A stretch of DNA of 64,000 bases from Burkholderiaceae bacterium (GTDB taxonomy: Bacteria > Pseudomonadota > Gammaproteobacteria > Burkholderiales > Burkholderiaceae): the NCBI GenBank assembly GCA_947448305.1, contig CANFME010000002.1, positions 1 through 64,000 on the forward strand, given 5' to 3'. A program made the translations under genes and the position numbers. Below the pieces are notes generated by a model, which did not search any database, was not told where the DNA came from, and saw nothing but the letters and a program-made list of their open reading frames with translations. This document shows positions 4,285 through 22,957 of the stretch, in pieces; the first letter of the stretch is position 1; every line of letters begins with the position of its first letter.

Positions 4285-5505
4285 ATGTCAAAACCATTAC
4301 TCCCGTACCACGATATTCGCGTTGTTGAATTCACCCATATGGTGATGGGTCCCACCTGCGGTATGGTGCTCGCAGACTTAGGTGCAGATGTGATTAAGGT
4401 TGAGCCTTTAGAGGGTGATAAAACTCGTGAACTATTAGGTTCTGGCGCAGGATTTTTTCCGATGTTTAACCGCAATAAAAAAAGTATTTCGGTAAATTTA
4501 AAAACCCCAGAAGGCAAGAAGGTCGTTGAAGACCTGATCGCCACAGCAGATGTCGTGATTGAAAACTTCAAAACGGGCACAATGAAAAAGCTGGGACTTG
4601 ATTACGAGACCTTATCCAAAAAACATCCACGCCTGATTTATGTCACGAATAAAGGATTTTTACCAGGACCTTACGATCATCGCACCGCACTTGATGAAGT
4701 CGTACAAATGATGGGCGGCCTAGCCTATATGACTGGCCCGAAAGGAATGCCATTGCGCGCTGGTACCTCTGTAAATGACATGATGGGTGGTATTTTTGGG
4801 GCAATTGGTGTGATGGCAGCACTTCGTAATCGGGATCGTACCGGTCTTGGTGAAGAGATTCAGACAGGTTTATTTGAAAACAATGTTTTCTTAGTTGGTC
4901 AACACATGTTGCAATATGCTGTGACCGGCAAAGCAGCAGACCCGATGCCAAATCGCATTTCTTCATGGGGAATTTACGATATTTTTGAGGTAAAAAATCA
5001 AGAACAGATTTTCTTAGGTGTCGTTACAGATACTCAATGGGAAATCTTTTGCCGCGTATTTGGTTTAACTGATCTTCAGGCGGATACAAGGTATGCCACT
5101 AATAATTTAAGAGTAACGAACCGAGAAACATTAATCCCTGAATTAAGAGCTAGATTTGTGGATATTGCAGCAGTGGACATTGCCAAAATCTTTGAAGATA
5201 ACGGCTTACCCTACGCACCAATAACTAAACCTCAAGAGCTATTTAATGACCCTCATCTCTTAGCAACAGGTGGTATCGCTAAGATTGAGATTCCGAATGG
5301 TGCAAACCCAGGATCTTTTACTCACACACCTTTATTACCATTAACCATTGGTGGTCAACGCTTAGGAATTCGATTAGACCCTCCTTACCAGGGAGCGCAT
5401 ACAAAAGAGATTTTGTCTGAACTGGGTTTATCACAAGCCACCATTGATGAATTGATTGCTAAAGGGATCATGGTGGCAAGCGGTGACACCCAAAGTAAAA
5501 AATAA
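4285..5505 (+). CDS. CaiB/BaiF family (class III) CoA-transferase
   Basis: 'DIRVVEFTHMVMGPTCGMVLADLGADVIKVEPLEGDKTR...NRNKKSISVNLKTPEGK...ADVVIENFKTG'. Confidence 0.93.
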   Translation: MSKPLLPYHDIRVVEFTHMVMGPTCGMVLADLGADVIKVEPLEGDKTRELLGSGAGFFPMFNRNKKSISVNLKTPEGKKVVEDLIATADVVIENFKTGTMKKLGLDYETLSKKHPRLIYVTNKGFLPGPYDHRTALDEVVQMMGGLAYMTGPKGMPLRAGTSVNDMMGGIFGAIGVMAALRNRDRTGLGEEIQTGLFENNVFLVGQHMLQYAVTGKAADPMPNRISSWGIYDIFEVKNQEQIFLGVVTDTQWEIFCRVFGLTDLQADTRYATNNLRVTNRETLIPELRARFVDIAAVDIAKIFEDNGLPYAPITKPQELFNDPHLLATGGIAKIEIPNGANPGSFTHTPLLPLTIGGQRLGIRLDPPYQGAHTKEILSELGLSQATIDELIAKGIMVASGDTQSKK

Positions 5506-5561: not shown

Positions 5562-6503
5562 TTATAACGCCTTTAAATGATAATTAATTCGATTCATTAA
5601 ATCATTAAAACTAGGCTGGCCTTTGTAATAAAGGCTAGCCACTTTTTGATATTCTGACTCAAACAGTTTTCTATCTTCTAACTCAGTTAGAAGAAAAGCA
5701 GCATTTTCAGTAATATTTAAATTATCAGCTTTAGGAAATCGCTCTTTTTTTCTGGTTCTATAACTGTCAGTTTTAATAAACTCTAAGACTGGAGAGTAGC
5801 CTAAAAGGCAATACACATCATAATAATGTCTTAAGAAATTCTTAGGAAATCCCTTCCCTGCTTTGAATTGTCGATACTTTGTAGATATAGTTTGCAACTT
5901 TTCAACAAATGTATATTCAGGCAAATAACATAAAATATTTTTTGCTCGGTTGTCATTAATATCTTTTACATACTTAACCGCATGATCGTACGCCCAAGAA
6001 GAAATATCTAATGCCTGATTTGGTGCAGTATCATCAAAGCCTAACTCCAACAATAAGCCATCTTTTAAACCATTCAACGATTGTGTTGTAGATTGGTAAT
6101 TTAAGCGAATCCCTCCGCTACGCATTTTTTCTTTATCATCAAAAGAATGATCACGACCTACATCTCGTAAGCCAGAAATTTTTAAATTTCTAGCTATCCA
6201 CTCATAGTAATCAGAACGTGATTGTATGTGTACTTTTTTATTTTGATTTTTCCCAGTCTTTACGTCTAGGCATTTTGGAGGATCAATTCGGATATCGATG
6301 TCTTCCGAAAATCGATGGATTAGACCAAAACCTTTAGATAGAGAAGTGCCGCCTTTTAATTCAAAGGTAAAGCCCTGCTCCTGCAATCCCCACAAGCAAT
6401 GCATGATCCAATAATCTTTTTCAACCAAAGTAGGACTAATCGCCATATCGTCAGATACAGCAGCAATCAAATCTTTAAAGTTTTTATGATGATGCAACAG
6501 CAA
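5562..6503 (-). CDS. abiEii: AbiEii/AbiGii-family nucleotidyltransferase toxin (type IV TA, AbiE)
   Basis: 'LVEKDYWIMHCLWGL...FELKGGTSLSKGFGLIHRFSEDIDIRID' nucleotidyltransferase signature; starts at TTG; lies 13 bp after the AbiEi-like gene. Confidence 0.88.
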   Translation of the reverse strand: MLLHHHKNFKDLIAAVSDDMAISPTLVEKDYWIMHCLWGLQEQGFTFELKGGTSLSKGFGLIHRFSEDIDIRIDPPKCLDVKTGKNQNKKVHIQSRSDYYEWIARNLKISGLRDVGRDHSFDDKEKMRSGGIRLNYQSTTQSLNGLKDGLLLELGFDDTAPNQALDISSWAYDHAVKYVKDINDNRAKNILCYLPEYTFVEKLQTISTKYRQFKAGKGFPKNFLRHYYDVYCLLGYSPVLEFIKTDSYRTRKKERFPKADNLNITENAAFLLTELEDRKLFESEYQKVASLYYKGQPSFNDLMNRINYHLKAL

Positions 6504-6516
6504 TATTCATTCTCAT

Positions 6517-7146
6517 TCAAGAATATCTTATCCAAGATAAAAGCATTTTTTTCGTTTTTCCTAAACCATAAAGTAGGACATATTTATCTAGCTTTGCAGA
6601 ATCAAAATTGGATAACATCTTTTCTACATTTACCAAAACATCATCCTTATTCTCTGGAAGAGAATCAAGATTGTTTAATAGGTCAATCAATAAGAACTCT
6701 TTATCTAGCTTTTTAGGAAATCTAGGTTTCATTTTAAAGTCAAAATTTCTATTACCTAATTGAAAGACACCATGGCGCTTATGGTTATAAACCCAAGTCT
6801 TGTTCTGTAGTTGCGTTGTTCCGATACCTAATGAGTTATAACTGTTAGGCGAAAAAATCAAGAAATCATCTTCTTTTAAAAAAGCTCGAACTAATTCATC
6901 TTCTTTTGGGGGTAATCTGCCAAATGTTGATGATTTTGGTGCGTAATAAAGTCCTTGTGATAACTTTTCTAAATCACCAGCATCTACCAATTGCTTTAAA
7001 TGACGGTCCACTGCATTAGAACTACTTAACAAATCCTCTCTTCTATAGACTTTGCCTTTCTTTAAATGCGAACGAAGTACTCCCAATGCAGTATCGGGCA
7101 ATTCATAAACTATTTTTGAGGAAGGCTTGATGAAGATTTTTTGCAT
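6517..7146 (-). CDS. abiEi: AbiEi-like / DUF6088 antitoxin of the AbiE system
   Basis: 209 aa with N-terminal wHTH 'VYRREDLLSSSNAVDRHLKQLVDAGDLEKLSQGLYYAPKSS', located directly upstream of the AbiEii gene. Confidence 0.82.
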   Translation of the reverse strand: MQKIFIKPSSKIVYELPDTALGVLRSHLKKGKVYRREDLLSSSNAVDRHLKQLVDAGDLEKLSQGLYYAPKSSTFGRLPPKEDELVRAFLKEDDFLIFSPNSYNSLGIGTTQLQNKTWVYNHKRHGVFQLGNRNFDFKMKPRFPKKLDKEFLLIDLLNNLDSLPENKDDVLVNVEKMLSNFDSAKLDKYVLLYGLGKTKKMLLSWIRYS

Positions 7147-7267: not shown

Positions 7268-8164
7268 TCAAAAGTCATAAAGCATTGCTGGTGTATCCAC
7301 CAAAACTTGTTGTAGAAGTTCAGGCGTATTTAATACTTCACCAAGCAAGTTAAGTAAATGACCATCATTAGGTAATTTTTCTTGTTCAAAATAATTAATG
7401 TGCGGCCAATCAGTTCCCCAAACTAATTGCTTTGGGTTGGCATCAACGAGTGCTTGCATAAAGGGTAATGCATCCACAAAACCTTTTGAGGCTGTGCCAA
7501 TTCGGTCTGCCCCAGAAATCTTACAAAAAGCTTGACCGGTTTTCAGTAAGTCACACAAAAACAAAAAGCCAGGATCAGTAATCCCTCTGGTCGTTTCCAT
7601 GCGTCCCATATGATCTACGATCAAAGGCAATTGTAAGGCGGCTAATCGGGGCATCAGGCGTGGTAAATCTGGTGCATAAATCCAAATTTGCGCATGCCAG
7701 CCACGACTTCGCATGCGAGGTGCTAAAGCTTCTAAAGTTTCAAGGCCAATACCGTTTCGATACATCGCGTGACCACCAACTTGTAATAAGTTGACCCGTA
7801 CCCCTCTGACGCCTAAGGCGTGCATTTGATCTAATTCCGCGTCCGTAATATTAGGATCTGGCACCACTACGCCTCGCAGACGATCCGGGTAAGCTTTAAG
7901 AGCGTCTAAGGTAGAGCCATTATTTGTGCCGCAAACGCTAGCGGTGACAACTACGCCTCTAGTTAAGCCGAGGTGATCTAAGTGCGCCACAAATTGCTCA
8001 GGTAAAAACTCTGCTGCAGGGGTATAACTTCGATCATCTGCTAAAGGATATTTAGAGTATGGGCCAAACGTATGAACGTGACTATCGCAGGCAAGTTTCG
8101 GTATTTGTAAAGTTACAGGTTGATATTCAGATAGTGGGATGGCTGGTAAGCATACTTTAGTCAT
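7268..8164 (-). CDS. Amidohydrolase family, 2-pyrone-4,6-dicarboxylate hydrolase-like (LigI-type) metal-dependent hydrolase
   Basis: 'CDSHVHTFGP', 'RGVRVNLLQVGG', 'LPLIVDHMGRM', 'LVWGTDWPH'. Confidence 0.87.
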   Translation of the reverse strand: MTKVCLPAIPLSEYQPVTLQIPKLACDSHVHTFGPYSKYPLADDRSYTPAAEFLPEQFVAHLDHLGLTRGVVVTASVCGTNNGSTLDALKAYPDRLRGVVVPDPNITDAELDQMHALGVRGVRVNLLQVGGHAMYRNGIGLETLEALAPRMRSRGWHAQIWIYAPDLPRLMPRLAALQLPLIVDHMGRMETTRGITDPGFLFLCDLLKTGQAFCKISGADRIGTASKGFVDALPFMQALVDANPKQLVWGTDWPHINYFEQEKLPNDGHLLNLLGEVLNTPELLQQVLVDTPAMLYDF

Positions 8165-8167
8165 TTT

Positions 8168-9187
8168 TTATTCCGCTTTAATTTTTCCAGAAAGGGCAAG
8201 TTTTTTTGAATTAACTGATTCTTTAGCAATCATTTCTTGCCAAGCTGCAGGGGTTGAATACAGCGGCGTACTACCAATTGATTTCATTCTTTTTAAGAAA
8301 TCTTCTTCTTTGGTCACTTGACCAATCGCTGCATTAAGTTTTTGAATTACTTCAGGAGGTGTGCCACTTGGCGCTAGGATGCCAGTGGTGGTTCCCATCT
8401 CTAAATCAATTTGCGTTTGCTCAACCAAGGTTGGTACCTCTGGAAAGTTGCCATCACGAGTTCTAGCAAGTACTGCGAGAACTTTTAATTGACCACCGTC
8501 GATAAAAGGCTTTGAGCTGGTAATTTGATCTACTACAAAGTCTAACTGTCCCCCAATCAAATCGGTTAATGCAGGAGCAGAACCTTTATAGGGAATTACA
8601 TTAAATTGTAATTTTGCTGCCTCTTCGATATTTAGAATCGACATATGATTAGATGTACCAGGTCCAGAATGTCCAACACTGACTTTGCCCGGAGACTTCG
8701 TTGCCATGGCGATCAAATCTTTAGCAGAATTAAATCGTGTATCGTTTTTTCGGACCACAATCATGAGCGGTGAAAAAGCCACGGCACTAATCGGCGCAAA
8801 GTTTTCTAACTGATAGGTCGTCTTGATTAAATGTGGCAGAGTACCAATGGTATTGGTGGTTGCCACAATTAAGGTATAACCGTCCGCAGGTGCTTTTGCA
8901 ACATAGCTACTTGCAATGGCTCCGCCGGCCCCAGCGCGGTTCTCAACGACTACTGACTGACCTAAAATTTTTGATAAGCCAGGAGCTAAAGTGCGGCCAA
9001 TAATATCTAAATTACCACCTGGTGCAAAAGGAATCTCTAGGTTAATACTTTTATTCGGAAAGGTATTACTAGTTGTTTGTGCAAAGCCTAGACTTGTGAT
9101 GAGACAAGTACCTAAAACAGAAACCAAAAGGCTTTTTTTGTTGAAATTGAAATAGAAATACTTCTGCAGTACCTGACTGATTTGCAT
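8168..9187 (-). CDS. Bug-family (TctC) substrate-binding protein, paralog 3
   Basis: 'FPNKSINLEIPFAPGGNLDIIGRTLA', 'VVVENRAGAGGAIASSYVAKAPADGYTL', 'VIPYKGSAPALTDLIGGQLD'. Confidence 0.92.
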   Translation of the reverse strand: MQISQVLQKYFYFNFNKKSLLVSVLGTCLITSLGFAQTTSNTFPNKSINLEIPFAPGGNLDIIGRTLAPGLSKILGQSVVVENRAGAGGAIASSYVAKAPADGYTLIVATTNTIGTLPHLIKTTYQLENFAPISAVAFSPLMIVVRKNDTRFNSAKDLIAMATKSPGKVSVGHSGPGTSNHMSILNIEEAAKLQFNVIPYKGSAPALTDLIGGQLDFVVDQITSSKPFIDGGQLKVLAVLARTRDGNFPEVPTLVEQTQIDLEMGTTTGILAPSGTPPEVIQKLNAAIGQVTKEEDFLKRMKSIGSTPLYSTPAAWQEMIAKESVNSKKLALSGKIKAE

Positions 9188-9270
9188 ACGATCTCCTTAA
9201 TTATTTTTTCACCATCACGTTAAAACTGAAAAGTTCACTAAAAGCATGAACTTGTCGCAGATACTCACGA

Positions 9271-10065
9271 CTACTCTCTAAAACTAGAATCCATGCGATC
9301 TAAGAAACGCAGCATTCCTGGCCACTCCATCACACCGTAGGGTCGACGAGTTTTTGGTTGATAGTTCATATAGGTTTCATCTAGTACTTGCTGTGATACT
9401 TTTTGTAATGGTGAATTACAAGCCATAGCAGCTAACTGCGCTTTACAAGATAGTTCTAAGCGGTGCATCCAATTAAACGCTTCACCAACTGTAGCGCCGC
9501 AAGTGAGCAAACCATGATTGCGTAAAATTAAGGCCTCAGAATCGCCTAAATCTTTGACTAAGCTTTCTTGCTCATCAAGGTTCAGCACTACACCCATATA
9601 GTCGTGATAGCTAATTTTCAAAAAACGCATTGAAGTTTGATTTAAAGGCAGTAGACCCATCTCTAATGAGGAAATGGCCATACCGGGCCAACTGTGGGTA
9701 TGAATGACGCAATTAACTTCAGGACGCGCTTTATGAATCGCACTATGCAAAATATATCCAGGAATATTAATCCCGTATTGAAGATCACCAAAATCTGGTT
9801 TTGTGAGGATCTTTCCTTCGTGATCAATTTTATATAAAGAAGAGGCTGTCATTTCTTCATACATCAAGCCATAGGCATTAGTTAAAAAAGCATCTTCCTC
9901 ACCCGGCACACGCAGAGTAATATGGTTCGCCATCATGTCAGACATGCCGTAATGCGCAACGAGCCGGTAACAGGCTGCGAGATTAACGCGTGCTTCCCAC
10001 TCCTGAGGGCTGACCTCATCTTTGAGAGAGCGCACATATAATTTTCCATTAGTACTTGTTGTCAT
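9271..10065 (-). CDS. Class II aldolase/adducin family protein
   Basis: 'YGMSDMMANHITLRVPG', 'CVIHTHSWPGMAIS', 'ALILRNHGLLTCGATVGEAF'; ATG at 10065 preceded by AGGAGAT. Confidence 0.9.
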   Translation of the reverse strand: MTTSTNGKLYVRSLKDEVSPQEWEARVNLAACYRLVAHYGMSDMMANHITLRVPGEEDAFLTNAYGLMYEEMTASSLYKIDHEGKILTKPDFGDLQYGINIPGYILHSAIHKARPEVNCVIHTHSWPGMAISSLEMGLLPLNQTSMRFLKISYHDYMGVVLNLDEQESLVKDLGDSEALILRNHGLLTCGATVGEAFNWMHRLELSCKAQLAAMACNSPLQKVSQQVLDETYMNYQPKTRRPYGVMEWPGMLRFLDRMDSSFRE

Positions 10066-10114
10066 TGATATCTCCTTTTTTACTAATTTTTTAAATTCTA
10101 TAACGAATACGATA

Positions 10115-12229
10115 CTACTTTTCAAAAACAGCAACAGCGTCGACAGCAGTAACGCCACTGCCTAGTGCGTGCATTAAGATGGGATTAACCTCTGCCTCAA
10201 GAAGAGTATGTCGATAACTTTGGGCCATTTTTACAAAACCTTGTACGACCTTTACTAAAGCAGGTATATCTAGGGGCTCAATCCCCCTAAAACCATTCAT
10301 GAGTGGCCAAATCGTCAGTGATTGCAACATCTGCAGAACCACTTCTTCATTGATTCCCACTTGTGCATCACTCGGAAGCAAAAATACGGTTGAGTCATTA
10401 AAAACCTCAGCCGTAATACCGCCTGAACCAATGATCAATACTAATCCTAGAATATCTCTCTTCACCCCGATGAACAGTTCTAAATCTTTAGGCAACATCT
10501 CTTGGATTAAAAATTCTTCAATCCGAATCCCTGTCTTAGCTAATACATTCTTACGCATTTTCTCTAGCTCAGCACCCACTTGGATACCGCGTAAATTCAT
10601 GACAACTCCACCCACATCGGTTTTATGAGTAATCTCATCACTCAATATTTTTAGGACTAAGGGCTTTTTTACTTCCGCTTCAAAGATGGTGGCTTGTAAG
10701 CTCGTAGTAATCACTTTCTCTCGCGCCATGGGCATGCCAAACTTGGCAAATAATGCTTTGGCGTCATGTTCATTCAGCGTTCCTTTGAACTCCCCTAGTG
10801 CTTGTGTTTCTGGATCTAAAGTAAATGACTCTGCTGGTAAAGTGGTTAAAGTATTTGCTTGCTCCCACTGCGAAATTTGCCATAAAGCTTTTAGGCCGCG
10901 AGCACAGCCTTCTGGGGCAGCAAAAGCTGGAATACCTTGTCGAATAAAAGTCGAAACAAGTTGTGGTGCATAGGGTGAGATATAAGCAAAGATGGGTTTG
11001 TTTGAGTCTCCCATACCTTCGCGTATCGCACCAGCCATCAAGTCAGGCATTGCTAAAGCAGAAGAACCAACTACTACTACGATTGCATCATAATCATCTG
11101 AGGCAAGCAGAGTTGCAATAATTTTCTTCAGCAAATCTGGCTTTAATCCAGCGAGGGTAACATCAATTGGGTTATTACCTAAATCAATTGGTAAGTTTTC
11201 ATCGAGCGTACGTAAAGTCTGAGCGGTCTCTTCTTTAGGCAGGGGCATTTCAAAATTCATTAAGCCCAAGTTATCTGCAATTAAAGTTGCTGCGCCTCCG
11301 CTAGATGTGAGGATAGCGATACGGTTATTTTTTAGTCGTTTGCCATTTTGGATTGAGACCGGAAAGTCAATCAAATCAGAAAAATAATCAGCTCGTAATA
11401 CTTGGTTTTGCTTAAAGAATTGATTGTAGACACGGTCTTCCCCCGCCATCGCACCAGTATGGGAAGCTGCTGAACGCGCACCGCTCTCTGATTTACCAAT
11501 TTTATAAACAATCAGGGTCTTACCAGCAAGTCTTGCCTTTTTTGCTGCTAACTCAAATTTAGCAGGATGACGAACACCCTCTAAATACAAAAGAATAATT
11601 TTTGTCGCAGCGTCTTCACTGAGATAGTCGACCATATCAGCCACATCTAAGTCAGCTTCATTACTCGTTGCAACTAATTTAGATAAACCTAAACCGCTAC
11701 CTGCTGCACGGGACAAAATAGAGCCAACAATACCGCCACTTTGCGAAACGATGGCCACTGAACCTGCATGCAAGTCCCCAATCTCAAGGGCAGAGCTAGC
11801 AGAAAGAGCAATGTTATCGGTCAAGTTCATGAGCCCAATCGTATTAGGTCCTAAGAGGCGCATATTACCTTTGGCTGCCAACAATTGTTGTTGCAGAAGT
11901 TGACCTTCCTCACCTAACTCAGCAAACCCACTCGCTAAAACGATCGCTGCTTTACAGCCCTTATCGGCTAATTCTTTGACGGCATTTATACTATTTTTTG
12001 CACCTAATAAAATAATTGCCATATCTGGCACATCGGGTATCGAAGCAATGTCTGGGTAACAAGTTTTACCTAACATTTCTTGATAACGTGGATTCACAAA
12101 ATAAATGGCTCCACTAAAATTTCTCTTAATTAAATAAGCACCAGGCAGACCTGATGTTTTCGTAGGGTCTGCTGAAGCACCAATAATAGCAACTGAATTG
12201 GGTTTAAATAAATAGTCCAAAGAGTTCAA
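10115..12229 (-). CDS. Acetate--CoA ligase (ADP-forming)-type / acyl-CoA synthetase family protein (CoA-binding, ligase-CoA and ATP-grasp domains)
   Basis: 'NSVAIIGASADPTKTSGLPGAYLIKRNFSGAIYFVNP', 'LLGPNTIGLMN', 'VAIVSQSGGI', 'SHTGAMAGEDRVYNQFFKQ', 'VLKILSDEITHKTDVGGVVMNL'. Confidence 0.92.
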   Translation of the reverse strand: MNSLDYLFKPNSVAIIGASADPTKTSGLPGAYLIKRNFSGAIYFVNPRYQEMLGKTCYPDIASIPDVPDMAIILLGAKNSINAVKELADKGCKAAIVLASGFAELGEEGQLLQQQLLAAKGNMRLLGPNTIGLMNLTDNIALSASSALEIGDLHAGSVAIVSQSGGIVGSILSRAAGSGLGLSKLVATSNEADLDVADMVDYLSEDAATKIILLYLEGVRHPAKFELAAKKARLAGKTLIVYKIGKSESGARSAASHTGAMAGEDRVYNQFFKQNQVLRADYFSDLIDFPVSIQNGKRLKNNRIAILTSSGGAATLIADNLGLMNFEMPLPKEETAQTLRTLDENLPIDLGNNPIDVTLAGLKPDLLKKIIATLLASDDYDAIVVVVGSSALAMPDLMAGAIREGMGDSNKPIFAYISPYAPQLVSTFIRQGIPAFAAPEGCARGLKALWQISQWEQANTLTTLPAESFTLDPETQALGEFKGTLNEHDAKALFAKFGMPMAREKVITTSLQATIFEAEVKKPLVLKILSDEITHKTDVGGVVMNLRGIQVGAELEKMRKNVLAKTGIRIEEFLIQEMLPKDLELFIGVKRDILGLVLIIGSGGITAEVFNDSTVFLLPSDAQVGINEEVVLQMLQSLTIWPLMNGFRGIEPLDIPALVKVVQGFVKMAQSYRHTLLEAEVNPILMHALGSGVTAVDAVAVFEK

Positions 12230-12279
12230 TGTGTAATCCTTTATGAATGAGGCAATGATGATGAGCCTTTTACTACGTG

Positions 12280-13101
12280 TTATTTTTTCGCTACTGGAGT
12301 ACGCTCTAAAAATGCGGCTACTGCATCATGGTGATCTTGCGTTGTATAACAAAGGCCTTGCGCGAGACTACCCTGGCTGAAAATTTGTTCCGCTTGCGAT
12401 TCATAAGTGCGGTTGATAATACTTTTCGTGAGCGCAACGGCAGCTTCAGAACCAACACTTAATTCTTTTGCCCAACTGATTGCTTGCGCTAATAAATCTT
12501 GATGAGGTACTAGGCGATCAGCAATCCCTAAATCTAAAGCTTCTGTAGCAGGTACTTTTTTCCCTGTAAATAACAGTTCTTTTGCTTTCGCTAAACTGAC
12601 ACGTCTAGGTAGAAAATACATACCACCACCGTCGGGTATGATGCCTCGCAGAATATAAGACCAAGCAAATAAGGCCGAATCAGCGGCCATCACAAAGTCA
12701 CAAGAAAGAGCCAAATCAGCGCCGAGTCCCATTGCTGGACCATTCACAGCTGCGATGGTTGGTTTAGGCATATTCATCAGCGCACTCACAGTTGAGCTAA
12801 CATATTGCTGGCGTGTCCAACCGTTAAAACCCATTTCACCAACAGGTGCATTCATTCTCTGCTTCATGCCATTAATATCCCCACCAGCGCAAAAACCTTT
12901 ACCAGCACCAGTAACAACGAGTGCACGGACATTGCGGTCATACGTGATTTGATTTAACAAATCAAGATACTGGGCACGCATTGCATCCGAAAATGCGTTC
13001 ATCTTTTCTGGTCGATTCAGGGTGAGAATGCCGATATTGTCCTCAACCTTAAATAAGACTTCGGGTTGGGTAGCTTCTTGAGACTGCAATTTCACTTCCA
13101 T
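12280..13101 (-). CDS. Enoyl-CoA hydratase/isomerase (crotonase) family protein
   Basis: 'GILTLNRPEKMNAFSDAMR', 'VVTGAGKGFCAGGDINGM', 'PTIAAVNGPAMGLGADLALSCDFVMAADSALF'. Confidence 0.93.
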   Translation of the reverse strand: MEVKLQSQEATQPEVLFKVEDNIGILTLNRPEKMNAFSDAMRAQYLDLLNQITYDRNVRALVVTGAGKGFCAGGDINGMKQRMNAPVGEMGFNGWTRQQYVSSTVSALMNMPKPTIAAVNGPAMGLGADLALSCDFVMAADSALFAWSYILRGIIPDGGGMYFLPRRVSLAKAKELLFTGKKVPATEALDLGIADRLVPHQDLLAQAISWAKELSVGSEAAVALTKSIINRTYESQAEQIFSQGSLAQGLCYTTQDHHDAVAAFLERTPVAKK

Positions 13102-13130
13102 TGTTGTTTCCTAATTGAATGTAACTTAAC

Positions 13131-14126
13131 TTAATCTAATTTAATTTTGGCGTTCTGAATTATTTTCTGCCAACGCGCTTCTTCATTTGCCACATATTGA
13201 CCAAAACTTTCTGGAGTACCAGGCTTGGCCATTAATCCTTCATCAGCGAGTCGAGTAGAAAAATAACTCGTTTTGGTTGATTGCAAAACCGCTTTATTTA
13301 ATCGATCGACAATCTCTTTTGGTGTTCCTACTGGAGCAAAGATTCCATACCAACTTTCCATGTAGTAATCTTTCACGCCTGCTTCAATCATGGTCGGGGT
13401 TTTAGGCCAACCGTTAGAGCGCTCCTTGGTGGTAACAGCAAGAGCCCTTAATTTGCCAGCACCGACCAAATTGGCTGCTGCTGAAGCAGTTGCAAAACTC
13501 ATACTGACTTGACCACCTAGTACATCCGTAATCGCCTGACTAGCGCCCTTATAAGGGATGTGGACCATCTCAACTTGCGCCAAACTAGTAAAGAGTTCAC
13601 CGGCTAAATGTGCTGAAGTGCCATTACCTTGCGAAGCATAAGTTAATTTACCGGGATTTTTTTTCGCATAAGCAATCACATCTGCAATGGATTTGAATTC
13701 ACTATTAGGTAAGACAACGAGCACATTAGGGGAGTTTCCGACCATCGCTACAGGAATTAAATCGCGACTTGCGACATAGGGCATGTTTTTAATCAAACTT
13801 GGGTTAACTGCTTGGGCAAAAGTGGCAACAATTAAGGTATAACCGTCTGGTGGACTTTTCACCACATAATCCGTACCAATTACTGTGCCCGCGCCAGGCT
13901 TATTTTCAACTACAACCGATTGGTTTAAATCACGACTCATGCCCTCCGCTACTGTTCTTGCAACTAAATCCGTGCCGCCACCCGGTGAAAAAGGCACAAT
14001 TAGCTTAATCGGCTTTTCAGGATATGTCGCACTCACTGACAATGAAAAACCAAGGCCAATGAATAACAAAAACTGGACTAAATGATTTGAGTATCTCGAA
14101 GAGATAATTCTATTAAAACTGATCAT
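13131..14126 (-). CDS. Bug-family (TctC) substrate-binding protein, paralog 4
   Basis: 'YPEKPIKLIVPFSPGGGTDLVARTVAEGM', 'VENKPGAGTVIGTDYV', 'HIPYKGASQAITDVLGGQV'; ATG at 14126 preferred. Confidence 0.92.
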   Translation of the reverse strand: MISFNRIISSRYSNHLVQFLLFIGLGFSLSVSATYPEKPIKLIVPFSPGGGTDLVARTVAEGMSRDLNQSVVVENKPGAGTVIGTDYVVKSPPDGYTLIVATFAQAVNPSLIKNMPYVASRDLIPVAMVGNSPNVLVVLPNSEFKSIADVIAYAKKNPGKLTYASQGNGTSAHLAGELFTSLAQVEMVHIPYKGASQAITDVLGGQVSMSFATASAAANLVGAGKLRALAVTTKERSNGWPKTPTMIEAGVKDYYMESWYGIFAPVGTPKEIVDRLNKAVLQSTKTSYFSTRLADEGLMAKPGTPESFGQYVANEEARWQKIIQNAKIKLD

Positions 14127-15481
14127 GCTTGCAATCTCCAATAAGAACTTAAGTTTGCAACAAGATTGTTCTCCCCTTGCCAAATCAGTGCACTTAACTC
14201 ACGCACCGCTATCTCGCCAACGCGAGTCGTTGATAGTTCCTGAAATTTTTCATTGAGTTCAGCATCCGTTAACGGATCATCCGGATCGCCGTGACGCGTC
14301 TGTTGATGATGCTCGAATACTTGCCCTGAGTTCATTTCAATCCGAACTTTTGCACTACGTACTTTAGGGAAAAAACTGGTAATTGCAGGATCAACTTGAT
14401 AAGAAATTTTGTCTTCTAATTGTTGAATCTTGTCATTGCCTAACTGCTCCTGTGCAAAGGCTTTTTCACGTACAGCACCTAAAATCATGCCACAAGCTAC
14501 CGTGTGGGTTAGACTAAATTTTGCTTCAAAGGGAGTCTGTGGATGGCGATACGCACACACATCTGCCGAAGCTTGGTATACCAAAATTTCAATTTTTTTA
14601 ACAGCACTTGTATCGATTTGATGCAGACGCGTGAGATACTGCGCACCATCAATCGCAGGAAAAGTATGACCACAGCAACCATGATTCTTAAACGTCATTT
14701 GCGTAATATTAAAGACCTCGCCAAGACCATTCAACACTTCACCCCAGCGCGGGTTTTGTGACATCGCGGCACCAAATCCTGCATCACCTTCCAAGATATC
14801 GGGTGTACCCGTCATACCGGCCAGTGCACAGTAAGCAGCATTCAAACCTACTTCTGCTGCATGTCCTGCGTGTAATGGTTTAGTCATTGAGTCACTGCGA
14901 AAAGCTTGTTGTAAACCACTAGCAAAAGTTCCAGCTGTAGCTAGGGCATTCATGGACTGCTCAGCATTTAGTCCTAACAAACTACTACAAGCGGCCGCCG
15001 CACCAAATACTCCAACAGTACCTGTCGTATGAAAATATTTGTAATGACTAGGCTGTATCACTTCAGCAATGCGTGTCGATACTTCATAACCGATCACAAT
15101 CGCTTTGAGTAAAGCGTCAAGGGTTAGCCCTTGTTGTGTAGCGCAAACCCAAGCAGCAGAAATAGTCGGACAAGCTGGATGGTATGCGCCGTTACGGTAG
15201 ATATCATCAAATTCAGCTATATGAGCAATCGAGCCATTTAAAAAAGCGGCAGCTCTAGGCGTAGTTTTTAAATCCGTACCTGCTACAGCACAATTGCCAA
15301 AGCCAAATTCAGGTTGATAAGCGGCAATTAGCTTTTGGGCGACGTCACTATTCGAGCCTGCAATCAATGCTCCTTGCCAATCAAGTAGTGCACGTCTAGC
15401 TGCATGCAAAACATTTGCTGCTAAAGGCTGCGACGAGGCTGTTTCAATATACTCACCAAAGCTAGTTAACAAAGTTTTCAT
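14123..15481 (-). CDS. MmgE/PrpD family protein (2-methylcitrate dehydratase / cis-aconitate decarboxylase superfamily)
   Basis: 'RRALLDWQGALIAG...AAFLNGSIAHIAEFDD', 'SKPLHAGHAAEVGLNAA'-type motif 'TKPLHAGHAAEVGLNAAYCALAGMTG', 'FKNHGCCGHTFPAIDG'. Confidence 0.92.
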   Translation of the reverse strand: MKTLLTSFGEYIETASSQPLAANVLHAARRALLDWQGALIAGSNSDVAQKLIAAYQPEFGFGNCAVAGTDLKTTPRAAAFLNGSIAHIAEFDDIYRNGAYHPACPTISAAWVCATQQGLTLDALLKAIVIGYEVSTRIAEVIQPSHYKYFHTTGTVGVFGAAAACSSLLGLNAEQSMNALATAGTFASGLQQAFRSDSMTKPLHAGHAAEVGLNAAYCALAGMTGTPDILEGDAGFGAAMSQNPRWGEVLNGLGEVFNITQMTFKNHGCCGHTFPAIDGAQYLTRLHQIDTSAVKKIEILVYQASADVCAYRHPQTPFEAKFSLTHTVACGMILGAVREKAFAQEQLGNDKIQQLEDKISYQVDPAITSFFPKVRSAKVRIEMNSGQVFEHHQQTRHGDPDDPLTDAELNEKFQELSTTRVGEIAVRELSALIWQGENNLVANLSSYWRLQA

Positions 15482-15513
15482 CTTGCCCTTTAAATTTATC
15501 TGATTGAACTAAT

Positions 15514-16530
15514 TTATTCTGGTTTTGCACCAGAGGATCTGACGATAGGTGCCCAAGTTTCATATTCATTACGCACAAATTTAGTAAATTCTGTAACATT
15601 CATGGCAATCGGTTCAGCTCCCTCGTTAATGAGTTTATCTTTAGTCTTTTTGGACATTAAAATCTCTACGATTTGTTGATTCAGCATCTTCACATTTTCT
15701 GGTGAAGTTCCGTGTGGTGCAAAGACTCCAAACCAAGAACCTGCAGCCATATTGATGCCGGACTCCAACATCGTTGGTACTTCTGGTAATGTAACGTAGC
15801 GTTTTTTAATTGAGATACCGATTGCCCTCACTTGACCACCTTTAATTAAGGCGGCAACAGAGGGTAAAGTTGCGAACATATAATCAAGTCGTCCTGCAAT
15901 GAGGTCTCGAACCGCTTCAGCACCTTTATAAGGAATGTGGGTTGCATTAATCCCACTTTGTTGACTAAACATAAAACCTGTCATATGCGAGGCAGTCCCA
16001 ATTCCGGTGGAGCCGTAATTGACTTTATTCATATTGGCCCGACCAAACTCAATCAAATCTTTCACTGAGTTGATTTTTGAACTGGCAGGCACAATCAAAA
16101 CATTCGGTACTTCAGCAAGTAATGCCACTGGGTCTAAATCCGTTAATGGATTAACCGCCAAGTTTTTAAATAATGTGGGATTGACTGAAATAGGACCACT
16201 CGAATTGACGAGCAGGGTATATCCATCAGGAGCAGACTTGCCAACAATCTCTGTACCCAAGTTCCCTGCAGCACCAGGTCTATTTTCTACAATGACCGGA
16301 ACCTTTAAACGCTGGGTTAATTGATTGGCTACTTCTCGAGCCAAAATATCGGTTGTGCCCCCCGCTGTAAAGGAGACAATCATTTTAATTGGCCGATTAG
16401 GATAAGTCTCTGACTGAGCGCTAGCGGTCTTTTGCAAGCCCATCATACTGACACATAAGAGACTTAATGAAATCACCTTAAGTGATCGTATTTTTAACTG
16501 GGTAAGTTGTAATTGCGTGAGTTTTAGCAT
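15514..16530 (-). CDS. Bug-family (TctC) substrate-binding protein, paralog 5
   Basis: 'YPNRPIKMIVSFTAGGTTDILAREVANQL', 'VIVENRPGAAGNLGTEIVGK', 'HIPYKGAEAVRDLIAGRLD'. Confidence 0.92.
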   Translation of the reverse strand: MLKLTQLQLTQLKIRSLKVISLSLLCVSMMGLQKTASAQSETYPNRPIKMIVSFTAGGTTDILAREVANQLTQRLKVPVIVENRPGAAGNLGTEIVGKSAPDGYTLLVNSSGPISVNPTLFKNLAVNPLTDLDPVALLAEVPNVLIVPASSKINSVKDLIEFGRANMNKVNYGSTGIGTASHMTGFMFSQQSGINATHIPYKGAEAVRDLIAGRLDYMFATLPSVAALIKGGQVRAIGISIKKRYVTLPEVPTMLESGINMAAGSWFGVFAPHGTSPENVKMLNQQIVEILMSKKTKDKLINEGAEPIAMNVTEFTKFVRNEYETWAPIVRSSGAKPE

Positions 16531-16591
16531 ATTCGATCCGATTCGTTATACGTCTAGGGATAAAGTAATAAATGTGTAATTAAGAAAATCT

Positions 16592-17752
16592 TTAAACTTT
16601 TGCTTTGGGTGGTCTTTGATCAAAGCGCATTTCTAAAACTTCTTCAGCAATCCGGTTTTTAAGAATTTCAATCGAACCACCTGCAATCATCCAACCTCGT
16701 GTTCTTCGAACACAATATTCCACTAGATTTTCTTGGCTATATCCAGAGGCGCCCATAATTTGCAAAGCCTCATTCGCAACGTTAAAACCCGTTTCATTAC
16801 AAATGAGTTTGGCCATCGCAGTTTCATAAGGTGATGGCAGACCACTATCAGCGTTTAGCGCAGCTTTATAAAGTAGCAACTGAGCTGCCTCTAATTTGGT
16901 CGCCATTTCTGCAAATTTCCACTGAATACCCTGAAATTCTGCAATCTTTCTAGAAAACTGGGTACGGGTTTTGGCATATTCCTTGGCTTGTAAAAATGCA
17001 TAACGTCCTAGGGCAAGAGAACGTGATGCATTACCAATCCGCTCAACATTGAAACCACTGATTTGCTTTTTAAAACCGCCCGGTCCTAGTAAAACATTTT
17101 TATCTGGGACAAAACAGTCTGCAAAATAAAGTTGTGACCAACGCTCCCCACTCATAAAGCTGGATGGTTGTCCAATCTCAAAGCCTGGAGTATCCCGATC
17201 AATTAACATCGAACCGATACCGTCAAGGCCCGGGCCATATCTTAAATAAATCAAGAATACCTTAGCATCTGGGCTATGGGTTGAAAAGACTTTACTGCCA
17301 TTAACTAAATAACCACCCTCTACTTTTTTAGCGTTGGTGGTGAGTTCTGTTACAGCAGACCCTGCGTCGGGCTCTGTCATTCCTAAAGAAATAACGGCCT
17401 TACCAGCTAATAAATCGGGTAGATAACGTTCTTTTTGATCTTGGGTCGCGTACTCAGCAAAACTACGAATTGGACCAAAGTTTCCCGCTTGCACAATATC
17501 CGCACTTTTGGGGCAATATAAGGCGATGGTCTGAATGGCTATGACTGCATCCATCAGCGTTCCGCCCATACCACCATCGGCTTCTTTTAGAGTAATGCCT
17601 AATAAGCCTTGTTGACTCAGTAGCTCTGAAATTTCCCAAGGGTAGTCAGGACTATGATTTCTAGATAGAGCTCCAGGCGCTAACTTATCCTTGCCCAGTT
17701 TGTGAAGAGCGTCAGCAAAAGCAATTTGTTCTGAGGAGAGTTGAAAATCCAT
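16592..17752 (-). CDS. Acyl-CoA dehydrogenase family protein
   Basis: 'SLGMTEPDAGSAVTELTTNAKKVEGGYLVNGSKVFST', 'GRYAFLQAKEYAKTRTQFSRKIAEFQGIQWKFAEMATKLEAAQLL'. Confidence 0.94.
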   Translation of the reverse strand: MDFQLSSEQIAFADALHKLGKDKLAPGALSRNHSPDYPWEISELLSQQGLLGITLKEADGGMGGTLMDAVIAIQTIALYCPKSADIVQAGNFGPIRSFAEYATQDQKERYLPDLLAGKAVISLGMTEPDAGSAVTELTTNAKKVEGGYLVNGSKVFSTHSPDAKVFLIYLRYGPGLDGIGSMLIDRDTPGFEIGQPSSFMSGERWSQLYFADCFVPDKNVLLGPGGFKKQISGFNVERIGNASRSLALGRYAFLQAKEYAKTRTQFSRKIAEFQGIQWKFAEMATKLEAAQLLLYKAALNADSGLPSPYETAMAKLICNETGFNVANEALQIMGASGYSQENLVEYCVRRTRGWMIAGGSIEILKNRIAEEVLEMRFDQRPPKAKV

Positions 17753-17898: not shown

Positions 17899-18867
17899 AT
17901 GAAAATCATTATTCCTGAAGACTACCAAGATTGCGTTCGTCATCTCAAATGCTTTTCACTATTAAAAGACCATGAAGTAATAATCCTCAATGAACCCCTT
18001 AAGACTTTAGATGAACGAGTTGCGGCCCTATCATCAGCAGATGCCTTAGTTCTGATTCGTGAACGTACACGAATGACTAAAGAATTGATTGCACAATTAC
18101 CTAATCTCAAACTGATTTCTCAAGTAGGTAAAGCGAATTCACATATTGATTTAGCTGCTTGTAAAGCTGCTGGTATAGCCATTGGCGAAGGTGAAGGATC
18201 TGGTGCTGCTACTGCTGAGTTAACGATTGCTTTGATACTCGCAGCTAAGAGAAATTTAGTATCCGAGGTAAATCGCCTTAAAAATGGTCAATGGCAAGGC
18301 TCTATTGGTGAACAAATTCGAGGTAAAACGATTGGGATCTTGGGGCTAGGGAAAATTGGAACGCAAGTTGCAAAAATTATGGCTGCCTTTGGCGCGCATA
18401 TTTTAGTTTGGGGAAGAGAAGGATCCTTACAGCAAGCTGCTGCCCTAGGCTACGAAAGTGCTAAAAGTCGTGAAGATTTTTTCAGTCGATCTGATATTTT
18501 GACGGTTCACATTCGCTCGAACGCTCAAACCCGTGGCATGATTAAAGCAACTGATCTAGCACTGATGAAACCAACTAGCCTTTTTGTAAATACAAGTAGA
18601 GCCGAACTCATCGAACCAAATGCTTTGGTTGAGGCACTCAAAAACAATCGACCTGGCTTTGCTGCAATCGACGTCTATGAACAAGAATTAGAACCCGTTT
18701 TAGATGCAAAGCATCCTTTACTCCATTTACCAAATACACTATGCACTCCGCATTTAGGTTATGTAGAAAAGGATAACTACGAAGCCTATCTGGGTACCGC
18801 TTTTGAGAATATTCTTAAATACGTGGATGGTCAAACTAGTCATTTAAAAGATTTAAGTAGTTTTTAA
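17899..18867 (+). CDS. D-2-hydroxyacid dehydrogenase family protein
   Basis: 'GKTIGILGLGKIGTQVAKIMAAFGAHILVWGRE', 'LMKPTSLFVNTSRAELIEPNALVEALKNNRPGFAAIDVYEQEL'. Confidence 0.93.
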   Translation: MKIIIPEDYQDCVRHLKCFSLLKDHEVIILNEPLKTLDERVAALSSADALVLIRERTRMTKELIAQLPNLKLISQVGKANSHIDLAACKAAGIAIGEGEGSGAATAELTIALILAAKRNLVSEVNRLKNGQWQGSIGEQIRGKTIGILGLGKIGTQVAKIMAAFGAHILVWGREGSLQQAAALGYESAKSREDFFSRSDILTVHIRSNAQTRGMIKATDLALMKPTSLFVNTSRAELIEPNALVEALKNNRPGFAAIDVYEQELEPVLDAKHPLLHLPNTLCTPHLGYVEKDNYEAYLGTAFENILKYVDGQTSHLKDLSSF

Positions 18868-20373: not shown

Positions 20374-21558
20374 TTACTCTGAACCAACATTCATTTTTTT
20401 ACCTAAGCGTACTTCGACTGCATTCTTAAGCAAAGAGGCGGAGCGATAAATACCGTGGGCAAATTTACCGTAAGGCATCATCAAGAAAAAGCCCATGACA
20501 AAGCCCAAATGCAAGGCTAATAAAATCCCCATATATTGTGTTTCGCGAAGAGCTAATAAACCAAGGCCTGTAACACTAATCATCAGAAGTAACACGACAA
20601 ATCCACGATCCATTGGCTTTTGCGCAGCATCACCGTGCAGTGGATGACGTTTAAGATTGAGATAAAGAAGTCCAACTGGTCCGACGATTAAGCCCAAGCC
20701 GCCGAGTGTGCCAAGGATGACAGGCAAACTTGTATAAGCATAAGGAGCTTCCCATCCAAATAAATAATGATAAAGAGTGGCAACGCTGGTCGCTGCAAAA
20801 CACAACATAAAACCATAGAAAGTGGCATGGTGTAAATGCCTACGCGCCAGTGAGAAAGCATCATCCGACTCGTTACAACCCGCTTGATGACCACCACCTA
20901 AATTTTTCAGCGTCAATGTATCGCGCAGTGCATCTACTGTAGCTTTTGGCGGGATTGGATCCGTGGAGATTTCTCCCCAAAAGTTTTTAACTCCCATACC
21001 CAAACAAAACACCATCGCGACAAAGACAATACCAAAACTAAGTGCTAAGGTATTGTGCGGGAAGATCGCATAAAAGTTACCGTCAGGTGAGCTAGTCCAC
21101 AAACTTTGATTAACTTGCATGAGGGCAATTAAAAAGATACCAATCGCAATCGATACGATCAACGATAAAGATAGTCCAGCCTTTTTATAGAGGGCTCCCA
21201 AAGGTCTTGGCCAAGCAAAATCAGTATAGGTTTCTAAGCGAACTTTAGCCATCGCTTGCGGAATATTGACGCCAAATTCATTGGGCGGAGCATATTGGCA
21301 GGCATGTAAACAGGCTCCACAGTTATGACACAAATTCGCCATAAAGTGAATATCTTTCACACTGAAATCAAGGCGTCTCGTCATGGACTGAAACGTTGCA
21401 CAAAAGCCTTCACAATATCTACAGGCATTACAAATTTGTAATACACGATGCACTTCTGCTACGTTTTCACTTCCCTGTGCAAGTCTTGAAGCTTCTGCGA
21501 TCAATCCGCCTAAGTTGGGACTGGTTGACGTTGAGTTACTCTGCACTTGCATATTCAT
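20374..21558 (-). CDS. tcuB: Tricarballylate utilization 4Fe-4S protein TcuB (CitB-like membrane electron-transfer protein)
   Basis: '[20 protein letters not shown]', '[27 protein letters not shown]' plus multiple TM helices. Confidence 0.92.
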
Positions 21559-22957
21559 CCTCTTTATTAATTGCTAGGTTTAATGCACGCGCCGCACTTT
21601 GACCTGCCATCCTACCAAAAATTGTTCCGATCGACATACCAATACCAGCGGTATATCCTTTACCGAGCACATTACCTGCCACGATTTCACCAGCAGCAAA
21701 TAAGTTCGAGCTAGGTTTGCCATCGAAGAATACTGCGACCGTTTCGTCCGTCTTTAAACCTAAATAGGTAAATGTAATACCAGGGCGAAGCGGATAAGCA
21801 TAGAATGGACCTTGATCAATCGGCAATGCCCAGTGTGTCTTTTCTGGATTAGCGCCTTCAGTGTGGCAATCATCCAAGACATTATGATCAAAAGTGCCCA
21901 CTTTACAAGCCTTGTTGTATTCATCAATCGTAGCTCTCAAGACGACTGGATCTAGATTAATTTGCGCTGCAATTTCTTCAATCGAATTACCCTTGATTGC
22001 TGGAAAGACCGGGGGCATAAAACGACCAATGGCTTTAGAGTCAATCACTGAGTATGCAATTTGGCCTTGTTGAAGAGCGACTAAGCGTCCCCAAATAGCA
22101 TAACGCTTCGGCCAAAAATCTTCACCCTCGTCATAAAAACGTTTGGCGAATTGATTAACAACCACACCTAAAGATACGCAATCTAAGCGCGTACAAATAC
22201 CGCCATCATATAAAGGTGAGCGTGCATCAATTGCCACACAGTGACCCTGCGTTGGATCACCAATTGAATCGGCGCCAGCATCGAGCAAGAACTTCAGAAT
22301 ATCTCCGCGGTTAAATTTGGTACCCCGGATTAAGAAATTATCGGCTGGCCACTCGCCATTTGGGTTTTGACCCCAAGCTTCACGCAACCATTCACGATTC
22401 GACTCAAAACCACCACAAGCGAGAACACAGACCTTTGCTTCAATGCGCTCACCACTTTCTAAAATGACCGCTTTAAACTCTGTGCCATCTAGATCAATCG
22501 ATTTAACAGGGGATTGATAACGAATCTGAATACCTAATTTCTCTGCACTGCGATAAAAAGCATTAACAAGGGCTTTGCCACCACCCAAGAAAAAGGCATT
22601 GGTTCTAGCAACGTGCAATGTGCCAGACAATGAAGCCTGAAAATGCACGCCATGCTTTTTCATCCAAGGTCGCACAGTAGCGGTACCTCTAATGATGATG
22701 CGTGCCAACTTTTCATTGGTCAAACCACCCGTCACTTTTAACAAGTCTTGCCAGTATTCTTCTTCAGGATAAGCTTCAACTAGAACATCTTGTGGGGCAT
22801 CATGCATACAACGTAAATTACGGGTGTGCACCGAATTACCACCCCGCCACTCCGGTGGAGCTGATTCTAAGAGCATCACTGAGGCGCCCGCTTCTCTTGC
22901 AGTAATCGCCGCACAAAGTGCCGCATTACCACCACCCACCACTAGAACATCAACCAT
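21536..22957 (-). CDS. tcuA: FAD-dependent tricarballylate dehydrogenase TcuA
   Basis: '[48 protein letters not shown]' FAD motif; overlaps tcuB. Confidence 0.92.

Follow-up and report, generated by a model that had tools for sequence, protein, structure and literature searches.

A conserved operon predicted to serve the CoA-dependent catabolism of a branched di- or tricarboxylic acid in a Burkholderiaceae genome

The window analyzed here is the whole stretch of 64,000 nucleotides (C2:1-64000 of the genome assembly G000, 2.65 Mb, from a small-genome genus of the Burkholderiaceae). In the region 7268–17752, nine genes lie head to tail on the minus strand, beginning with that of an acyl-CoA dehydrogenase (ACAD) and ending with that of a LigI-like amidohydrolase (Table 1). 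The original prediction had described nine co-directional genes with small gaps, and an open reading frame (ORF) check of the window bore this out for both coordinates and strand. The intergenic gaps, in the order from ACAD to LigI, are 61, 32, −4, 29, 50, 49, 83, and 3 bp, when the likely start codons are used for BugB (the ATG at 14126, which overlaps the MmgE stop codon by 4 bp) and for the aldolase (the ATG at 10065). The family names given earlier were also reproduced by Pfam and NCBIfam: Amidohydro_2, three TctC/Bug proteins, Aldolase_II, an ADP-forming acyl-CoA synthetase (ACD), ECH_1, the N and C parts of MmgE_PrpD, and acyl-CoA dehydrogenase. A promoter and terminator scan of the predicted operon gave no more matches than were found in shuffled sequences. 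What the computations show directly is the gene content, order, and conservation, the residues of the active sites, and the presence of a separate methylsuccinate cluster, described below.

Table 1 Features of the operon and of the adjacent genes, listed in the order of the operon
Feature	Position	Strand	Remarks
Acyl-CoA dehydrogenase (ACAD)	16592..17752	-	First gene; Glu237, A357-G358-G359, invariant D85
BugA	15514..16530	-	TctC-type solute-binding protein
MmgE/PrpD family protein	14123..15481	-	Predicted to epimerize a 2-substituted succinate-like acid; Y147, H151, K201, H204, K265, H272
BugB	13131..14126	-	TctC-type solute-binding protein; listed ORF extends to 14183
Crotonase	12280..13101	-	Of the PaaG-like isomerase type; retains D157 but neither hydratase Glu
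ADP-forming acyl-CoA synthetase (ACD)	10115..12229	-	Single-chain; candidate phospho-His H257 (SHTG)
Class II aldolase/adducin protein	9271..10065	-	PRK07044 subfamily; likely ATG 10065, listed ORF extends to 10158
BugC	8168..9187	-	TctC-type solute-binding protein
LigI-like amidohydrolase	7268..8164	-	Probable lactonase; metal-site residues kept, two substrate-binding residues changed
D-2-hydroxyacid dehydrogenase (2HADH)	17899..18867	+	Divergent from the operon here
Family III CoA transferase	4285..5505	+	Convergent; probable accessory member

The ACAD sequence points to Polynucleobacter rarus (98%) and P. kasalickyi (96%) as the closest named species. The order and content of the nine genes are identical in these two species, and the divergent 2HADH gene and an ammonium transporter gene are found there too. 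Reshuffled and extended versions holding most of the set occur in about 20 other Polynucleobacter; altogether, the set is kept in about 25 species of this genus, and sub-sets are distributed across the Burkholderiales, Roseomonas, and SAR116 (Alphaproteobacteria among them). In many other Polynucleobacter the run is longer, namely Bug–crotonase–ACD–alpha/beta hydrolase–FadB–2HADH–ACAD–Bug–MmgE–aldolase–Bug–LigI, and comes with a PcaF-like thiolase and an IclR regulator in divergent orientation. One conceivable reading takes this 12-gene version as ancestral and that of the window as reduced. Because 2HADH is included in the longer run, and in most other Polynucleobacter is encoded inside the operon itself, it is considered part of the system. 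Among the full-length ACAD loci of Polynucleobacter, MmgE was found in 16 of 16, and ACD and the crotonase in 15 of 16 each; in other taxa, MmgE accompanied ACAD in 23 and ACD in 32 of the 38 loci. As controls, 20 stretches of 20 kb were taken from four genomes, all of Polynucleobacter: none contained any of the operon enzymes (0/20), while Bug genes alone were present in 6. Since P. rarus and P. kasalickyi share the same order and content and the enzymes are absent from the controls, the grouping of these genes is not a matter of chance.

Outside Polynucleobacter, the ACAD orthologues are 60–70% identical to that of the window, and in 43 of 54 loci they adjoin an ADP-forming ligase of a different type (about 32% identical to the window's). 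Their other neighbours, in varying order, are MmgE, Bug, LysR, alpha/beta hydrolase, 2HADH, aldolase, and CoA transferase genes. The pair of window-type ligase and crotonase is kept as a module in Cupriavidus, Paraburkholderia, Variovorax, Bradyrhizobium, Sinorhizobium, and Roseomonas. Because this pair is conserved by itself and the ACAD loci elsewhere use a different ligase type, the Polynucleobacter operon may be a combination of two wider modules. In the loci L040 (14799–17676) and L057, both ligase types lie near each other (33% and 47–51% identical to the window's), and in such loci each type has its own crotonase or dehydrogenase.

The sequence of ACAD carries A-G-G (357–359) in place of the canonical YEG motif, and its Glu237, at the isovaleryl position, is invariant in 82 of 82 relatives. 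Isovaleryl-CoA dehydrogenase is a documented case of an enzyme that lacks YEG and has its Glu displaced (PMC8360864; PMC11659651), and the methylsuccinyl-C4-CoA dehydrogenase of the reference cluster introduced below has Glu in the same column as E237. Because isovaleryl-CoA and methylsuccinyl-C4-CoA are both beta-branched, we predict a beta-branched acyl-CoA as the ACAD substrate. The best solved and NCBIfam match of ACAD is the 3-sulfinopropionyl-CoA desulfinase Acd of Advenella mimigardefordensis (5af7; 33% identity, 283 bits), which shares A-G-G in place of YEG. However, this desulfinase has Gln in the E237 column and Arg84 where ACAD has D85, and the score falls below the NCBIfam cut-off of 600 bits; desulfination of 3-sulfinopropionyl-CoA was rejected for these reasons.

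The MmgE/PrpD protein shows a close resemblance to methylsuccinate isomerase: the active-site strings (SHY..FHTTGTVG and FKxHxxCxHTxPAxDA) match, and the contexts of Y147, H151, K201, H204, K265, and H272 are near-identical. Among 66 homologues, H101, K201, H204, K265, and H272 are invariant. An extra Tyr was assigned by Gonner et al. to the two-base epimerases of this family (PMC12290011). The protein is of this type, with Y147, H151, K201, and K265 aligning with the residues of IDS epimerase and methylsuccinate isomerase, and the extra Tyr (Y147) is missing from IRG1. It is thus predicted from these residues to be an epimerase of a 2-substituted succinate-like acid. Two other functions were rejected. 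One is cis-aconitate decarboxylase, whose active-site residues in IRG1 we take to be D93, T97, H103, K207, and H277; the corresponding columns contain E90, I94, H101, K201, and C270, so that two of the five are kept. The other is 2-methylcitrate dehydratase, since the protein scores 36 bits against a PrpD cut-off of 458 and has an isomerase-type active site. The dehydration step formerly ascribed to this protein is therefore not supported, and methylcitrate, one of the substrates proposed for growth assays, becomes unlikely. In the phylogenetic trees, the Polynucleobacter sequences of MmgE group together and away from the rest; this placement is moderately supported. The MmgE/PrpD family is very common (50,344 matches, 19% of the GTDB species; PMC12290011). 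The window genome has 15 homologues; its other copies are at most 38% identical to the window MmgE, while for MmgE proteins that accompany the ACAD orthologues of other genera, identities of 43–48% prevail.

By motif reading, the crotonase has D129 and Y149 at the positions of the hydratase Glu residues (rat E144 and E164). Because both catalytic Glu residues are replaced, a role as classical enoyl-CoA hydratase was rejected, and the hydration step assigned to it earlier is not supported. The isomerase Asp, D157, is unchanged in all of 50 relatives, and its counterpart in the PaaG-type entry 6sla is an Asp that is given there as Asn. The crotonase thus looks like a PaaG-type isomerase: the PaaG enoyl-CoA isomerase is the nearest characterized type and has the catalytic Asp in common with it. 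The setting differs, as there are no phenylacetate pathway genes around the window crotonase. ACD agrees with an ADP-forming acyl-CoA synthetase, with all four domains above the cut-offs (CoA_binding, Succ_CoA_lig, and ATP-grasp_5 among them) and His257 in SHTG. The aldolase has the metal-binding His residues H153, H155, and H215 in the numbering of the longer ORF. For the amidohydrolase, the best solved relative is LigI, the 2-pyrone-4,6-dicarboxylate hydrolase, and the residues were compared on the basis of what we take to be the metal- and substrate-binding positions of LigI. The metal ligands and the positions of Tyr49, Arg124, and Arg217 are kept (H29, H31, H185, D252, Y47, R123, and R221 in the window protein), while Arg130 and Tyr156 are replaced by V129 and W161. 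The context also differs from that of LigI, with no ring-cleavage genes nearby.

The known system nearest in logic is the itaconate/methylsuccinate cluster (Ich-Mcd-Msi-Ict-Ccl) of Cupriavidus necator and Pseudomonas aeruginosa (PMC12290011, PMC9875883). In both systems, the gene of an MmgE/PrpD isomerase adjoins that of an ACAD whose isovaleryl position is occupied by Glu, and both include a CoA-activating enzyme and Bug; in P. aeruginosa a lactonase is an accessory. The window cluster differs in that an ADP-forming ligase is present instead of, or beside, the CoA transferase, and in that the crotonase isomerase, the aldolase, and 2HADH are added to the core. A copy with the same five-gene content on a Marinobacter plasmid (L161) was used as the reference. 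The window proteins are not orthologous to those of the reference (ACAD 27% to Mcd, MmgE 32% to Msi), and tblastn searches with the reference proteins found no match for Ich or Ccl in the window. Matches were found on two other contigs of the same genome: Ich, Mcd (about 72–73%), and Ict (65%) on C107, and Msi (55%) and a Ccl-like gene (37%) on C27. In P. rarus (at 2.10 Mb) and P. kasalickyi, the canonical genes form one uninterrupted cluster. Because the canonical genes stand separately in the same genome, the window operon constitutes a paralogous system of its own, which probably has a different substrate; itaconate, methylsuccinate, and, by extension, citramalate are accordingly unlikely as substrates. 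The earlier view that this is not a standard named pathway was upheld, and no description of a cluster with such content was found in the searched literature (open-licence papers).

These results clarified that the locus is a real, conserved gene cluster and, judged by its spacing, a probable operon, and they support the view that it serves the CoA-dependent catabolism of a branched or polycarboxylic acid. The original prediction was partly right, with two enzyme roles now corrected and several substrates made unlikely. We tentatively favor, at a little less than an even chance, the view that the operon serves a chiral, branched acid with two or three carboxyl groups, of the 2-substituted-succinate type. 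The reactions, their order, and the substrate class are what we infer, with the active sites as the basis for the first steps. The Bug proteins would bind the acid in the periplasm and pass it to the membrane proteins TctAB, encoded elsewhere; where the acid arrives as a lactone, the LigI-like hydrolase would open it. MmgE/PrpD would epimerize the free acid at C2 by a two-base enolate mechanism with Tyr147 and His151, and the ATP-dependent synthetase would form the CoA ester at the carboxyl group distal to the branch, so that a beta-branched acyl-CoA results. This ester would be oxidized to the enoyl-CoA by ACAD through its isovaleryl-type Glu237, and the PaaG-like crotonase could then shift the double bond. 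Finally, the class II aldolase and 2HADH might process the cleavage product, a hydroxy or oxo acid. Several findings count against this proposal. No obvious gene for a hydratase or an acyl-CoA lyase is present in the window cluster, leaving the downstream route incomplete. ACAD is closer to the desulfinase than to Mcd, LigI is missing from several otherwise complete clusters, and the FadB-like bifunctional enzyme and PcaF-like thiolase in other Polynucleobacter versions suggest beta-oxidation rather than a citramalyl-type cleavage.

The last finding leads to a competing explanation, in which a carboxylic acid derived from rings of lignin or humic matter is broken down by a beta-oxidation-type route: the lactonase and the hydrolase would open the ring product, the CoA ligase would activate it, and the dehydrogenase, the FadB-like enzyme, and the PcaF-like thiolase would yield acetyl-CoA and succinyl-CoA. 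Most Polynucleobacter versions do carry FadB, the alpha/beta hydrolase, IclR, and the thiolase, the LigI-like enzyme is nearest to a 2-pyrone-4,6-dicarboxylate hydrolase, and the thiolase has an orthologue (82%) in the window genome. In the Amazon, moreover, Polynucleobacter and transporters of this type have been connected with organic matter of terrestrial origin (PMC7597016). Yet the genomes of the window, P. rarus, and P. kasalickyi have no FadB counterpart, and in all three the thiolase orthologue is encoded elsewhere. Full beta-oxidation by the same enzymes is therefore not the window's route, and the role of FadB is either dispensable or different. Besides, two substrate-binding residues of LigI are lost, and the epimerase signature of MmgE and the isovaleryl-type ACAD are left unexplained. 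This explanation is rather unlikely. It is improbable that the operon is a loose set of Bug-associated catabolic genes without a single pathway. Such neighbours are common in a genome with 148 TctC genes and 15 MmgE/PrpD homologues, and the modules have been reshuffled between genera with a change of CoA ligase type; nevertheless, the same orthologous families come together in varied orders in Noviherbaspirillum, Herminiimonas, and Advenella but never in the controls, and next to the ACAD orthologues of other genera, MmgE is in most cases closer to the window MmgE than are the other copies in the window genome.

Another candidate substrate is tricarballylate or a substituted tricarballylate, with TcuAB belonging to the same system. 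The tricarballylate utilization proteins TcuB and TcuA, far above the NCBIfam cut-offs, are encoded at 20374–22957, 2.6 kb upstream of ACAD, and TcuAB genes likewise adjoin the clusters of P. rarus, P. kasalickyi, and Noviherbaspirillum suwonense. This adjacency is suggestive of tricarboxylates; however, it is seen in 3 of 80 ACAD loci, two of them from near relatives, and is too rare to weigh much. Moreover, tricarballylate has no chiral center to be epimerized, and TcuAB by itself converts it to cis-aconitate. The earlier suggestion of tricarballylate is thus weakened by the dedicated enzymes nearby, and we regard this candidate, too, as improbable. Lastly, a diverged itaconate/methylsuccinate (or citramalate) pathway would account for the combination of ACAD, MmgE/PrpD, and CoA activation (PMC12290011). 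It is already contradicted by the lack of Ich and Ccl in the cluster and by the canonical genes on C107 and C27, and is very improbable.

As for the borders of the system, the original prediction missed 2HADH and probably also the family III CoA transferase. The latter recurs beside ACAD orthologues with 48–67% identity and directly follows LigI in P. rarus, with about 0.4 kb between them, and it probably belongs to the system. Between LigI and the CoA transferase, the window contains genes for an AbiEii-type nucleotidyltransferase and a DUF6088 partner (5562–7146), and P. kasalickyi has a related partner gene (74%) at the same place. Given the short spacing in P. rarus, this pair looks to have been inserted or lost. 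Against the 148 TctC/Bug matches, the genome contains only three TctA matches, one of them complete, so that orphan solute-binding proteins are in extreme excess; across the genus, the first-look counts of TctC/Bug candidates range from about 4 to 169. Internal stop codons were observed in the ACAD orthologues of the Polynucleobacter genomes G306, G303, G382, and G416 and in FadB of G111, which suggests decay of the pathway in some lineages or assembly errors. In addition, a locus filed as Thermoflexus hugenholtzii (L119, CALPOM020000205.1) holds Polynucleobacter-like ACAD-Bug-MmgE genes, probably through contamination of that assembly.

Returning to the 2-substituted-succinate reading, it is possible, if doubtful, that a second CoA-dependent route for chiral branched dicarboxylic acids exists beside the methylsuccinate pathway in freshwater Polynucleobacter and, rearranged, in many Burkholderiales and some Alphaproteobacteria, proceeding by epimerization, activation (ATP to ADP), dehydrogenation with an isovaleryl-type enzyme, isomerization, and cleavage. 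If so, its substrate would be an abundant, unrecognized constituent of the dissolved organic matter; a succinate with a hydroxy or carboxymethyl substituent, or the lactone of such an acid, would be an example. The cluster ties one MmgE/PrpD and one orphan Bug sub-family, both from poorly assigned groups, to a specific dehydrogenase and CoA ligase, and its occurrence in culturable species opens a direct way to a new substrate. As Polynucleobacter abounds in humic freshwater, this substrate could be an overlooked share of the carbon taken up there.

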